From assembly GCA_027686065.1 (NCBI GenBank), contig JAQCTH010000013.1:1-63340 (forward strand): a DNA stretch of 63,340 nt, given 5' to 3'. Under the pieces are notes generated by a model. That model did no database searches and had not been told where the DNA came from. It saw only the letters and a list, made by a program, of their open reading frames with translations. Every line of letters begins with the position of its first letter. Within the stretch, counting starts at the first letter, position 1. Origin of the DNA: Clostridiaceae bacterium AF10-41. Its GTDB lineage: Bacteria; Bacillota; Clostridia; Clostridiales; Clostridiaceae. This document shows, one piece after another, positions 32,820 to 46,295 of the stretch. Made by a program: the position numbers and the translations under genes.

Positions 32820-32849
32820 TTGACAGTAAGAAGGGAAAAGGTTTACAAT
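32820..32849 (+). promoter_or_regulatory. Promoter of the KAS III-liv genes
   Basis: TTGACA at 32820-32825 and TACAAT at 32844-32849 with an 18-bp spacer. The candidate TetR operator starts seven bases after the -10. Confidence 0.65.
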
Positions 32850-32855
32850 AAAATT

Positions 32856-32871
32856 GAAAGTAAACACTTAC
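32856..32871. promoter_or_regulatory. Candidate TetR operator 1, before the KAS III-liv genes
   Basis: GAAAGTAAACACTTAC fits GTAAG-N6-CTTAC with one mismatch in the left half-site, and agrees with operator 3 at 13 of 16 positions. It covers the predicted transcription start, so binding should repress. Confidence 0.6.
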
Positions 32872-32903
32872 ATACTATAAAGTTATTGAAATGGAGGATT
32901 AAT

Positions 32904-33923
32904 ATGGTTAATGTAGGAATAGTAGGGTTAGGACTTTATATACCAGAAACTAAAATGACAGCAAAAGAGATTTCAGAAGCAACAAATGGTATTTGGAGTG
33001 AAGAAGCTGTAATAAAAAAATTAGGAATAGTAGAAAAGACTATACCAGGAGAAAGTGATGGAACTCAAGAAATGGGAGTAAAGGCAGCTTTAGATGCACT
33101 AAAGGATGCTAATATGTCTCCAGAGGAAATAGATGTAATTTTATGTATGGGAGAAGAGTGGAAGGAGTATCCACTTACAACATCAGCTTTGTATATACAA
33201 GGGAAAATAGGTGCAAAAAATGCATGGGGAATAGATGTTCAAAATAGATGTTGTACAACTGTATCTGCATTAAAAATAGCTAAAGATATGCTTTTAGCAG
33301 ATGAATCAATAGATACGATTATGGTAGTTGGAGGATATAGGAACGGAGATTTTGTTGATTATTCTGATTCAAATATGTCAATGATGTACAACCTATCAGC
33401 TGGTGGAGGAGCAATAATATTAAAGAAAAATGCAGGTAAAAACATTTTGTTAGGATCACATATAAAAGCAGATGGAACCTTTTCAAGAGATGCAGGAGTA
33501 GAAATAGGTGGAATAGCAAACCCATTTAACTCAAATAATGTTGAAGAGGGATACAAGTCATTAAGACTAATGGATCCAAAACATATGAAAGATGGATTAA
33601 ATGCAGTTTCAATGCCAAATTGGTTTGAATGTATTGATAAAGCTTTAGAAAAATCAGGATTAAAAAGAGAAGATATAAATTATCTTGCAGTACTACATTT
33701 TAAAAAATCTATGCATGATTTTATGTTAAAAGAACTAGGACTAAAAGATGAACAATCAATTTATTTATCAGATTACGGACATATGGGGCAAGTAGATCAA
33801 ATACTATCATTAAAACTTGCATTAAAAGAAGGAAAGGTAAAGAAGGGTTCAGTAGTGTTGATGATAGCTGCTGGAATAGGATACGTATGGTCGGCAAACG
33901 TAATAAAATGGGGAGAGTGTTAA
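32904..33923 (+). CDS. KAS III-like (thiolase-fold) 3-oxoacyl synthase, atypical
   Basis: 339 residues from ATG 32904, preceded by GGAGG; upstream codons of the longer frame lie in promoter and operator DNA. Fold and lengths match ketoacyl synthase III (FabH-like). Cys116 (VQNRCCTTVSAL) aligns with the nucleophile and His265 (VLHFKKSM) with the catalytic His. The FabH Asn (GNTS) is replaced by His293 in YGHMGQ, giving Cys-His-His rather than Cys-His-Asn. It precedes livH by 3 bp, so it is co-translated with a transporter, not with fatty-acid synthesis genes. It probably acts on acyl-CoA; condensation, acyl transfer and cleavage are all possible. Confidence 0.78.
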   Translation: MVNVGIVGLGLYIPETKMTAKEISEATNGIWSEEAVIKKLGIVEKTIPGESDGTQEMGVKAALDALKDANMSPEEIDVILCMGEEWKEYPLTTSALYIQGKIGAKNAWGIDVQNRCCTTVSALKIAKDMLLADESIDTIMVVGGYRNGDFVDYSDSNMSMMYNLSAGGGAIILKKNAGKNILLGSHIKADGTFSRDAGVEIGGIANPFNSNNVEEGYKSLRLMDPKHMKDGLNAVSMPNWFECIDKALEKSGLKREDINYLAVLHFKKSMHDFMLKELGLKDEQSIYLSDYGHMGQVDQILSLKLALKEGKVKKGSVVLMIAAGIGYVWSANVIKWGEC

Positions 33924-33926
33924 AGC

Positions 33927-43581: not shown

Positions 43582-43599
43582 TAGGAGGATAGGATTAAT

Positions 43600-44016
43600 A
43601 TGAAAGGTAAAACTATAAATGAAATAAATTTAGGAGATAAATCTAGTTATAGCAGGACAGTATGTGAGGCTGATGTAATTTTATTTGGAGGTGTAAGTGG
43701 TGATTTAAATCCAGCACATTTCAATGAAGAATATTCTAAAGATACTATGTTTAAAGGAAGAATAGCTCATGGAATGTTGTCCGCTGGATATATATCAACT
43801 GTTCTTGGAATGCAACTTCCAGGTCCAGGAACAATATATCTTTCACAAGAATTAAAATTTACATCTCCAGTTAGATTTGGAGATACTATAACAGCAACAG
43901 TAGAAGTTATAGAGAAACTAGAAGAAAAAAATAGAATAACTCTTGAGACAATTTGTACAAACCAAAGAGGAGAAGTTGTAGTTAAGGGAAAGGCTGTAGT
44001 AATGCCTCCTAAATAA
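43600..44016 (+). CDS. MaoC-like (R)-specific enoyl-CoA hydratase
   Basis: 138 residues with the hot-dog fold hydratase-2 motif: GDLNPAHFNEEY, in which Asp35 and His40 match the catalytic pair of PhaJ, then FKGRIAHGML and LKFTSPVRFGDTITA. It hydrates enoyl-CoA to (R)-3-hydroxyacyl-CoA or the reverse, which fits the FabG/PhaB-like enzyme two genes upstream. GGAGGA precedes the ATG. A 60-bp gap with the palindrome CCTAATATTAGG leads to pta. Confidence 0.88.
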   Translation: MKGKTINEINLGDKSSYSRTVCEADVILFGGVSGDLNPAHFNEEYSKDTMFKGRIAHGMLSAGYISTVLGMQLPGPGTIYLSQELKFTSPVRFGDTITATVEVIEKLEEKNRITLETICTNQRGEVVVKGKAVVMPPK

Positions 44017-44075
44017 CATTTCTTATAACATATATGAAGTCTTTATAAAAATATCCTAATATTAGGGGGAAAGAC

Positions 44076-45083
44076 ATGGAACTTTTAAATAAATTATATG
44101 AAATTGCTAAAGAGAATACAAAGAAGATTGTTTTACCAGAGGGAGAAGAAGAAAGAACTATATTAGCAGCCGTTAAAATAAATGATATGAAAGTAGCTCA
44201 TCCTATATTGATTGGGAATTACGAGACTATTTTAAATAAAGCAAAAAATTTAGATGTAGATATGGATGAAATAGATATAATAGATCCAGAAACATCAGAT
44301 AAACTTCAAAATTATATAGAGAAGTTTTATGAGTTAAGAAAAAATAAGGGAATGACTATAGAAAAAGCTAACAGCATAGTTAAAGATCCTCTATATTTTA
44401 GCACAATGATGGTAAAATGTAATGATGCAGATGGAATGGTATCAGGAGCAATTCATACAACAGGAGATTTATTAAGACCAGGGCTTCAAGTAATAAAAAC
44501 TTGCAAAGGGGTTTCAGTAGTATCAAGTTTCTTTATAATGATGATTCCTAATTCATGCTATGGAGAAGCAGGAATGGTATTATTTGCTGATTGTGCCGTA
44601 AATCCAAATCCAAATTATAAAGAGCTTGCAGAAATAGCAATAGCAACTGCAGATACGGCAAGAAATGTTTGTAATATAGAGCCAAGGGTTGCAATGTTAA
44701 GTTTTTCAACTATGGGATCAGCAGATCATGAAACTGTGGAAAAAGTAAGAATGGCGACAGAGCTAGCTAAGAATATGAGACCAGATTTATTAATTGATGG
44801 AGAATTACAGTTAGATTCTGCAATAGTACCAAAAGTTGCAAAGCAAAAAGCTCCAAATAGTAGTGTGGCTGGAAGAGCTAATGTTTTAATATTTCCAGAT
44901 TTACAATCAGGTAATATAGGGTATAAACTTGTACAAAGATTTGCTAATGCTGAAGCTATAGGGCCTATATGTCAAGGGTTTGCTAAACCTATAAATGATT
45001 TATCTAGAGGGTGCTCAGTAGAAGATATAGTAAATGTAGTAGTTTTGACTTCTGTACAATCTCAATCAAAAATTACATTGTAG
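44076..45083 (+). CDS. pta: Phosphate acetyltransferase
   Basis: 335 residues: short Pta form. VLPEGEEERTILAAV (about 19-33), GMVSGAIHTTGDLLRPGLQ, GEAGMVLFADCAVNP, MLSFSTMGSADHETVEKV and the C-terminal NVLIFPDLQSGNIGYKLVQR are all typical. It makes acetyl phosphate from acetyl-CoA; a phosphotransbutyrylase is less likely by length and motifs. It is coupled to ackA 19 bp downstream. Being attached to the hydratase and thiolase genes, it may be a pathway-dedicated second copy. Confidence 0.93.
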   Translation: MELLNKLYEIAKENTKKIVLPEGEEERTILAAVKINDMKVAHPILIGNYETILNKAKNLDVDMDEIDIIDPETSDKLQNYIEKFYELRKNKGMTIEKANSIVKDPLYFSTMMVKCNDADGMVSGAIHTTGDLLRPGLQVIKTCKGVSVVSSFFIMMIPNSCYGEAGMVLFADCAVNPNPNYKELAEIAIATADTARNVCNIEPRVAMLSFSTMGSADHETVEKVRMATELAKNMRPDLLIDGELQLDSAIVPKVAKQKAPNSSVAGRANVLIFPDLQSGNIGYKLVQRFANAEAIGPICQGFAKPINDLSRGCSVEDIVNVVVLTSVQSQSKITL

Positions 45084-45101
45084 TAGAGGTGAAGATAAAA
45101 T

Positions 45102-46295
45102 ATGAAAATACTAGTTATTAATTGTGGAAGTTCATCATTAAAATATCAGCTAATAGAGATGCAAGATAAAGCATTAATATGCAAGGGATTAGTTGAAAGA
45201 ATAGGGCTAGATGGTTCTATATTAATGCATGAGAACCATAAGGGCGAAAGATACAAAAAAGAAATTGAAATAAGAAATCATAAAGAAGCTATAAATAGAG
45301 TCTTAGATATTTTAGTAGATAAAAATATCGGAGCAATTAAAGATTTAAATGAAATATTTGCGGTAGGACATAGAGTTGTCCATGGAGGAGAAAAATACTC
45401 AAAATCAGTAGTTATAGATGAAGAAGTATTAAAGCATTTAGAAGAATGTACAAAATTAGCACCAATTCATAATCCACCAAATATAACTGGAATCAAGGCA
45501 TGTATGGATTTAATGGATGATACTCCTATGGTAGCTGTCTTTGATACAGCTTTTCATCAGACAATGCCAGAGGTTGCATATATTTATCCAATAGAATATA
45601 GCCTTTATGAAAACTATAAGATAAGAAAGTATGGTTTCCATGGAACATCACATAAATATGTATCTCAAAAATTAAGTGAAATAATGAATCAAAGTATAAA
45701 AGATTTGAAAATAGTAAGTTGTCATTTAGGAAATGGAGCGAGTATATCAGCTGTAAAAAATGGAAGATCAATAGATACATCCATGGGTTTTACGCCATTA
45801 GCCGGAATAGCTATGGGCACAAGATCTGGAAATATAGATCCTTCAATATCTACCTTTTTAATTGAAGAGTGTGGATATACGGTAGAGGAAGCAAATGAAT
45901 CTTTAAACAAGAAATCAGGAGTTTTAGGGATATCAGGAATAAGTTCTGACTTCAGGGATCTGGAAAGGTCTGCATTAGAAGGAAATAAAAGAGCAAAGCT
46001 CGCATTAGATATTTTCTATTATAGAATAAGAGGACAAATAGCAGCCTATGCAGCTCATATGGGTGGAGTAGATGCAATTATTTTCACAGCAGGAATTGGT
46101 GAAAATTCCATAACAACCAGAAAAGAATGTTTAAAAGGCTTAGAATTTTTAGGCGTGGAAATTGATGATGAAAGAAACAATATAAGAGGAGAAATAGCAA
46201 AAATTTCAAATGATAAGTCTAAGGTGAAGGTTTATGTAATACCAACAAATGAAGAGTTGATGATAGCAAATGAAACATTGGAAGTATTAAATTAA
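45102..46295 (+). CDS. ackA: Acetate kinase
   Basis: 397 residues, ASKHA family: NCGSSSLKYQLIEM at the N-terminus, HRVVHGGEKYS, PIHNPPNITGIKA, VFDTAFHQTMP, GFHGTSHKYVSQ, SCHLGNGASISA and FTAGIGENS. Makes ATP and acetate from acetyl phosphate. Last gene of the module; the family A palindrome starting 31 bp after its stop may work as terminator. Butyrate kinase is excluded by the motifs. Confidence 0.95.
   Translation: MKILVINCGSSSLKYQLIEMQDKALICKGLVERIGLDGSILMHENHKGERYKKEIEIRNHKEAINRVLDILVDKNIGAIKDLNEIFAVGHRVVHGGEKYSKSVVIDEEVLKHLEECTKLAPIHNPPNITGIKACMDLMDDTPMVAVFDTAFHQTMPEVAYIYPIEYSLYENYKIRKYGFHGTSHKYVSQKLSEIMNQSIKDLKIVSCHLGNGASISAVKNGRSIDTSMGFTPLAGIAMGTRSGNIDPSISTFLIEECGYTVEEANESLNKKSGVLGISGISSDFRDLERSALEGNKRAKLALDIFYYRIRGQIAAYAAHMGGVDAIIFTAGIGENSITTRKECLKGLEFLGVEIDDERNNIRGEIAKISNDKSKVKVYVIPTNEELMIANETLEVLN

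Follow-up and report, generated by a model that had tools for sequence, protein, structure and literature searches.

Background

Which genes stand under the TetR-family regulator encoded beside a cluster of transport and acyl-CoA genes in Clostridiaceae bacterium AF10-41, and do they serve one pathway? The question is raised by contig JAQCTH010000013.1 (assembly GCA_027686065.1), of which positions 1 to 63,340 were analysed; this whole stretch of 63,340 nucleotides is called the window below. A sequence-only reading had noticed the palindrome GTAAG-N6-CTTAC at 32856, 40866 and 41634, and had proposed that the TetR protein encoded at 40915-41493 acts through these sites on itself, on the genes from a KASIII-like gene through a Liv-type importer, and on the genes from fabG to ack. 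Judged from sequence comparison, this TetR is very probably a local self-regulating repressor that is released by a ligand and acts at four operators, with a predicted regulon of 15 genes in four units. No work on this regulon or cluster was found in the literature, as far as titles and the openings of abstracts go. The operators and the units behind them are called A to D, and all coordinates are collected in Table 1.

Four palindromes in the window

The three palindromes were found where they had been reported, each most likely in non-coding DNA to judge from the reading frames around it. They were scored with a matrix derived from 14 sites of classes A-C in relatives; neither the window nor its near twin contributed to it, nor did the fourth class (D). 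This held-out matrix places the four window sites at the top (19.6-23.5), followed by a next best score of 13.2. When the window was shuffled with dinucleotides preserved, a score of 19.6 or more was reached nowhere in 995 of 1000 shuffles and at a single site in each of the other 5. The exact form GTAAG-N6-CTTAC occurs twice against 0.045 expected, and a single shuffle in 1000 had at least two copies.

The earlier statement that no further copy had been noticed does not stand, as GTAAGCGATTACTTTC at 26802-26817, with one mismatch, precedes the gene of a second alpha/beta hydrolase (abh2) and lies 20 nt upstream of its open reading frame (ORF). The regulon size of 14 genes was right for three sites (8+1+5) and becomes 15 with this fourth one. 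A fifth candidate, at 17348, which the held-out matrix scores at 13.2 and the first matrix at 13.9, was rejected, being within the range of the shuffle maxima (mean 12.4, standard deviation 2.4). A shorter inner register, GTAA-N4-TTAC, is shifted by 4 bp, and its GTAA is kept in 7 of 7 aligned rows of operator A and in 6 of 7 of operator C, not in those of B or D. The corresponding 12-bp sequence GTAAGTACTTAC was therefore dismissed as the true operator: sites B and D are without it, and the outer 16-bp register is common to all.

Conservation within Clostridium

Orthologues of the TetR were found in at least 5 of 68 Clostridium genomes (best 48 candidates per genome scored), and the same five carry the KASIII family. 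One of them, C. sartagoforme AAU1 (L027), is the near twin, whose TetR locus matches that of the window. The window is itself Clostridium DNA, and the closest genome in the comparison has 23% of its sampled 31-letter words in common with it. Sites A, B and C stand at the same places in all five relatives. Without the near twin, identity over the 16 operator columns averages 0.79-0.96 per class, and the flanks are less kept (0.44-0.59 over 40 bases upstream, 0.40-0.51 over 25 bases downstream).

A strict form of the operator, GWAAGNRRNYRCTTRC, has 19 matches in the five whole genomes, namely 15 at A-C, 2 at D and 2 within long reading frames; because sites A-C served to build the form, only its off-cluster count informs. 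The two off-cluster matches (L028 and L030) were rejected as operators because both are inside reading frames. The same form written backwards gave 4 matches. The sequence-only reading had suggested looking for equally good sites elsewhere; in the strict form they are few (2 of 19), although looser forms are common. The exact GTAAGN6CTTAC alone has several matches in coding places of the Clostridium genomes. In one genome (G048) a lone good palindrome, GTAAGCAATGGCTTAC (L039), lies 101 nt 5' of a 457-aa ORF and is possibly there by chance.

The fourth operator goes together with its gene. An abh2 orthologue is present in four of the five relatives and operator D in the same four; in the fifth, G026, neither was found (D was searched at its locus). 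Operator D is identical to that of the window in AAU1 and in L010. L007 and L009 depart from it in the last base; 15 of 16 bases are identical, and the call there rests on these and on position. In L007, L009 and L010 abh2 and the KASIII gene are immediate neighbours, abh2 being the upstream one. The window has three genes between them (28045-32608), for a bglG-like antiterminator, a PTS protein and a glycosidase, and the DNA at about 27840-27880, just 5' of the bglG-like gene, resembles what we take to be a BglG-type antiterminator target.

Beyond the genus

G597 belongs to another genus of the same family and has a TetR of 67% identity (best 16 candidates per genome scored in this search). 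It carries a perfect palindrome before the KASIII gene (L143) and another after tetR, before maoC (L116). As fabG and the thiolase gene are not between tetR and maoC here, operator C is kept though the first gene is now maoC. The second hydrolase was not seen upstream of KASIII in this genome. The first bases of L116 are not trustworthy, the contig start (L116:1-43) presumably being leftover sequencing adapter, which it resembles.

G422 belongs to another family, and its TetR has 51% identity. One of its contigs reads fabG-KAS-livH-livM-livG and a second livG-livF-livK-CoA-transferase-abh1-tetR-thiolase, and from their order the two appear to be one operon split by the contig ends within livG. 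It is headed by a single operator (23.7) behind TTGACA-17-TAAAAT. Genes that occupy three units in the window would thus form a single unit in G422, which is the best support for the earlier proposal of one pathway, most of the genes apparently forming one operon behind one operator.

For a negative control, 682 kb with 37 further KASIII loci, taken from 33 other genomes of Firmicutes, were scanned; they cover 33 of the 37 other genomes with KASIII, the rest being G234, G259, G309 and G357. The sole site of 15 or more is that of G422, and the looser GYAAGN6CTTRC is matched 3 times. In 14 of the 37 other KASIII genomes a TetR matches with E 1e-8 or better, but the match is close only in G422 (51%, E 1.1e-55), the rest having E 2.5e-20 or weaker. 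Comparison of related clusters, which the sequence-only reading had proposed, therefore speaks for it: the palindrome is in all TetR-bearing clusters with a readable operon head (five Clostridium, G597, G422), and the remaining 36 KASIII loci are without it. Site conservation and co-occurrence with the TetR both support its claim that the TetR controls the KASIII-liv genes, itself and the genes from fabG to ack.

The recognition helix and the half-site

In 41 TetR loci, with five close orthologues left out and the distant orthologues L116 and L144 included, residues 38-40 were compared with the DNA near the regulator's own gene (best 8 candidates per genome scored). Where these residues read V[NT]E, GYAAGN6CTTRC is found near the own gene in 10 of 14 loci, against 0 of 27 for the others (Fisher 8.9e-7), the class having been fixed after viewing the 41 rows, which were recounted by hand. 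Without L116 and L144 the count is 9 of 12. In 17 held-out rows it is 2 of 2 against 0 of 15 (p 0.007), where one success, L196, shares its genus group with L181 from the first set, which means that the two successes are not both independent. Besides the late choice of the class, the first coded rule, [VI][NT]E[VIL]T[ILVF]FR, counts against the link, having given 8 of 12 against 2 of 29 (both exceptions have V-N-E), as do the 4 of 14 V[NT]E rows without a site nearby, one of them that of G422. An out-of-sample TetR search in another class returned only the query's own genome.

Distant TetRs with V-N/T-E and GYAAGN6CTTRC beside their own genes are L145, L146, L147, L148, L165, L170, L175, L181, L183, L196 and L200, with L146 and L147 from one genus. 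Those from the first set of 41 loci have 24-36% identity to the window TetR in local alignments, and because the distant TetRs stand in other gene settings (at L145 the gene 3' of tetR encodes a membrane protein, judged by eye), the half-site appears to go with the recognition helix rather than with the pathway.

The TetR protein and its closest known systems

The N-terminal helix-turn-helix of the window TetR (TetR_N, PF00440) scores 60 bits against a cut-off of 24 over residues 11-55. Its structure model has ten helices in an all-helical two-domain fold (pLDDT 87.6), and the best structure matches belong to the TetR family; among the 50 Foldseek matches listed, the lowest E-value is that of 3bhq and the highest TM-score (0.82) that of YvdT (2f07).

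Regulators of the TetR family are mostly repressors that bind palindromic operators in short intergenic DNA by the regulator gene (PMC3511530), and the predicted window regulon agrees with this. It departs from the rule on divergent neighbours given there: all window units are read the same way, and a target gene lies some 13 kb off. FadRSa of Sulfolobus acidocaldarius is a TetR repressor that has just four sites in the genome, every one within a single catabolic cluster, and is released by acyl-CoA (PMC6449355). It resembles what is predicted for the window TetR in being a local regulator with four sites, semi-palindromic operators and a catabolic cluster that contains hydrolases and acyl-CoA enzymes (PMC6449355). 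Of the 19 strict matches in the five Clostridium genomes 17 are A-D and 2 are inside long reading frames, the form being built from A-C and looser forms being commoner. The Foldseek matches of the model include structures of FadRSa, with 18-21% identity in the aligned structures. The differences are that FadRSa is archaeal and has other gene content, and that the acyl-CoA inducer is demonstrated for FadRSa (PMC6449355). On present evidence the window TetR would work like FadRSa, and we do not equate the two as sensors.

Bacillus FadR and mycobacterial FasR, both acyl-CoA sensors, share the fold, a similar size and metabolic rather than efflux targets, but have only 16-19% identity to the window TetR, which stays below the NCBIfam FadR (Bacillus) cut-off (33.5 against 200 bits). 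Their operators differ from the window palindrome. The nucleoid occlusion factor SlmA, also of the TetR family, is a weak sequence match below its NCBIfam cut-off (24.3 against 120 bits). The inner 12-mer of site C resembles what we take to be the SlmA site; SlmA sites are spread over a chromosome, whereas the window sites lie at promoters of one cluster.

Promoters and proposed mechanism

Operator A starts 6 nt after the end of its predicted -10, and both this spacing and the predicted promoter of unit A are kept in the window and in the four Clostridium relatives that were rescanned; in L143 the promoter reaches only 8 of 12 consensus positions. The best -10 of unit D ends 6 nt before the operator in the window and in L009, and 10-11 nt before it in L010 and L007. 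Operator B starts 15 nt after its predicted -10 in the window. The possible tetR promoter overlaps the end of abh1, so that its conservation may reflect coding. The earlier remark that one palindrome lies across a predicted transcription start fits site A (TTGACA-18-TACAAT), but promoter matches as such are no commoner than in shuffles. Directly before operator C a hairpin with a 3' T-run folds in 7 of 7 loci, a count made without a shuffle control, and a GC-based terminator scan does not call it in the window (41578-41622). As a terminator it would separate unit C from tetR and make a promoter of its own necessary.

In the mechanism that we propose, the TetR would bind as a dimer to a 16-bp palindrome, GWAAGN6CTTRC, at four places. 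At D and A it would sit at about +1 of abh2 and of KASIII-livHMGFK-CoA-transferase-abh1, at B just downstream of the tetR transcription start, and at C between a weak -35 and the -10 of fabG-thiolase-maoC-pta-ack, in each case blocking RNA polymerase. An acid of the pathway or its CoA ester would release it, and all four units would be turned on together. Import by the Liv ABC system, activation by the CoA-transferase, hydration and oxidation by MaoC and FabG, cleavage by thiolase and/or the KASIII-like enzyme and ATP formation by Pta-Ack would then be switched jointly. That the TetR represses, regulates itself and lets go when an acid or CoA ester binds is inferred from the habits of the family, and the earlier suggestion that the pathway is inducible, with such a ligand, is of the same kind.

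Weighing the explanations

Several findings weigh against a four-operator repressor of this cluster. The palindrome alone is not rare: allowing up to two mismatches, the window has 24 matches against 26.9 expected, which is chance level, and GWAAGN6CTTRC occurs at 29 places in G597, 2 of them at the cluster. Operator D scores weakly in L007 and L009 (12.5 with the first matrix, below the 13.9 of the window's 17348), and both the strict form and a cut of 15 bits miss it there. Site B is absent before tetR in G597, and no site was found near tetR in G422, whose operon is also without maoC, pta, ack and abh2; both assemblies consist of broken contigs. A Turicibacter metagenome-assembled genome (L011, TetR 66%) has no site around tetR, and nothing in its locus reaches 14; the contig starts within the cluster, the operon head being off the contig, and this genome was left out of the counts. 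The best promoter of unit C has 7 of 12 positions in the window and up to 10 in relatives. Promoter-like matches are at shuffle level (51 against 49.6 in the stretch of site A, 8 against 7.6 in that of tetR).

If the palindromes were chance or local repeats without function, the chance-level count at two mismatches would be expected, yet conservation at fixed places, the shuffles, the joint presence or absence of D and abh2 and the co-occurrence with the TetR leave this explanation with hardly any credibility. It is quite improbable that the sites belong to another regulator, global or unlinked, with the TetR at 40915 merely a neighbour. The missing sites directly before tetR in G422 and G597 would suit such a regulator, and binding by the TetR is itself a prediction; but the site accompanies the TetR orthologues in different genera and families, and of the 37 KASIII loci only the one whose genome has the TetR shows it. 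Strict matches elsewhere in the five genomes are few, and TetRs with this helix that stand in other settings likewise carry the half-site next to their genes.

We give about as little credence to a TetR that activates these units, or both represses and activates them. Activators normally bind upstream of -35, whereas in the window the predicted -10 elements of units A and D end 6 nt before the operator, and a possible -10 shares bases with operator C. The poor promoter of unit C is what an activated promoter might look like, and one activator of the TetR family, AtrA, is reported (PMC3511530). A repressor at four operators could also occupy A and C with two dimers on overlapping registers, and B and D with one, the units being graded rather than simply on or off. 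The kept inner register makes two dimers possible at A and C, but the overlap could be chance in an A+T-rich half-site; we regard this arrangement as unlikely though worth keeping in mind, and it would refine the repressor explanation rather than replace it.

Genes and other features of the window

From ORFs and profile searches, the genes of the predicted regulon other than abh2 fall into three transcription units of the same direction, 32904-40847 (8 genes), tetR at 40915-41493 and 41667-46295 (5 genes). The KASIII ORF is listed from a TTG at 32820; its true start is probably the ATG at 32904, because a ribosome-binding site precedes it and the 339-aa ORFs of L008, L009 and L010 agree. The CoA-transferase has its best PDB relatives annotated as 4-hydroxybutyrate CoA-transferase and is below the TIGR03948 cut-off (291 against 674.8 bits). 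For abh1 no NCBIfam model reaches its cut-off among the 25 of 35 matches listed.

Table 1. Operators, genes and predicted expression signals of the window (operator scores from the held-out matrix)
Feature	Position	Strand	Evidence
Operator A, GAAAGTAAACACTTAC, 1 mismatch to GTAAG-N6-CTTAC	32856..32871		pattern, matrix 20.1
Operator B, GTAAGGGAGTACTTAC, exact	40866..40881		pattern, matrix 21.8
Operator C, GTAAGTAAGTACTTAC, exact	41634..41649		pattern, matrix 23.5
Operator D, GTAAGCGATTACTTTC, one mismatch like site A	26802..26817		matrix 19.6
Predicted sigma-A promoter of unit D, TTGTAA-17-TATGAT	26767..26795	+	consensus scan
Predicted promoter of unit A, TTGACA-18-TACAAT	32820..32849	+	11/12 consensus positions
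Possible tetR promoter, TTGAGA-17-TAATAT	40822..40850	+	9/12 positions
Possible -10 TACAAA overlapping the end of operator C	41647..41652	+	inference; TACAAA or TACAAT in 7/7 loci
A+U-rich hairpin with T-run, likely terminator, between tetR and operator C	41578..41622	+	folding
abh2, second alpha/beta hydrolase, 296 aa	26838..27728	+	ORF; name given by eye from sequence
KASIII-like condensing enzyme, NF005308 family, 339 aa from ATG	32904..33923	+	NCBIfam 472.6 bits, above curated cut-off 315
livH-like ABC permease	33927..34802	+	PF02653
livM-like ABC permease	34816..35826	+	PF02653
livG-like ABC ATPase	35804..36592	+	PF00005, PF12399
livF-like ABC ATPase	36594..37313	+	PF00005
livK-like substrate-binding protein	37362..38591	+	PF13458
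CoA-transferase, 4-hydroxybutyrate/butyrate type	38676..40007	+	PF13336, PF02550
abh1, first alpha/beta hydrolase	40032..40847	+	PF00561
tetR, TetR-family regulator, 192 aa	40915..41493	+	PF00440 1.9e-16
fabG-type short-chain dehydrogenase	41667..42389	+	PF13561, FabG models
Acetyl-CoA acetyltransferase-type thiolase	42394..43581	+	PF00108; TIGR01930 497.9 bits
MaoC-type hydratase	43600..44016	+	PF01575
Phosphotransacetylase (pta)	44076..45083	+	TIGR00651 422.8 bits, cut-off 311.2
Acetate kinase family (ack)	45102..46295	+	PF00871

The KASIII-like family and the pathway

A KASIII-like gene was found in at least 38 of 398 Firmicutes genomes sampled (best 5 candidates per genome scored). FabH, the true KASIII, has the catalytic triad Cys-His-Asn. 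The KASIII-like protein of the window is below the FabH cut-off (129.6 against 292.1 bits) and lacks that triad, its third residue being His. Over 47 rows, made up of the window protein (32904-33923, counted twice) and 45 homologues in L007-L010, L074-L110 and L143, Cys is found in 44, His in 41 and, at the third site, His in 46.

In our own count of the 37 KASIII loci, 31 have at least one Liv-type match of any strength, ABC genes being common and part of these matches perhaps due to chance; 25 have a CoA-transferase above 390 bits, and in 11 the second hydrolase scores above 200 bits. In L074-L110 a neighbourhood of KASIII, Liv importer, CoA-transferase and hydrolases recurs across Firmicutes, sometimes with a second KASIII-like gene.

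Since genes for uptake, CoA activation, hydration and oxidation, thiolytic cleavage and substrate-level phosphorylation are all present, our guess is that the pathway ferments a short 3-hydroxy or 3-oxo acid, or an ester or lactone that releases one. Use of 3-hydroxybutyrate or of PHB (polyhydroxybutyrate) was considered; the PHA (polyhydroxyalkanoate)-depolymerase model is far under its cut-off (85 against 300 bits), so that such use stays a guess.

Conclusions

The regulatory mechanism is ordinary, and the interest, which is moderate, is in the pathway that the operators delimit and in the link between helix and operator. With rather more doubt than confidence we suggest a wider picture, in which an undescribed anaerobic fermentation pathway runs across Firmicutes, with a degradative Cys-His-His KASIII-like enzyme, a 4-hydroxybutyrate-type CoA-transferase, two hydrolases and a Liv importer, and in which the helix class V-N/T-E-x-T-x-F-R makes GYAAGN6CTTRC operators readable from the protein. 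If this is true, the link between helix and operator would make the targets of many unstudied TetRs predictable, and part of the TetR family would be a readable code. For the organism, the regulon probably marks the importer, the KASIII-like enzyme, the CoA-transferase, both hydrolases, FabG, the thiolase, MaoC and Pta-Ack as one switched set. It would narrow the substrate search for the KASIII-centred neighbourhood, for which the operators would be a ready reporter.

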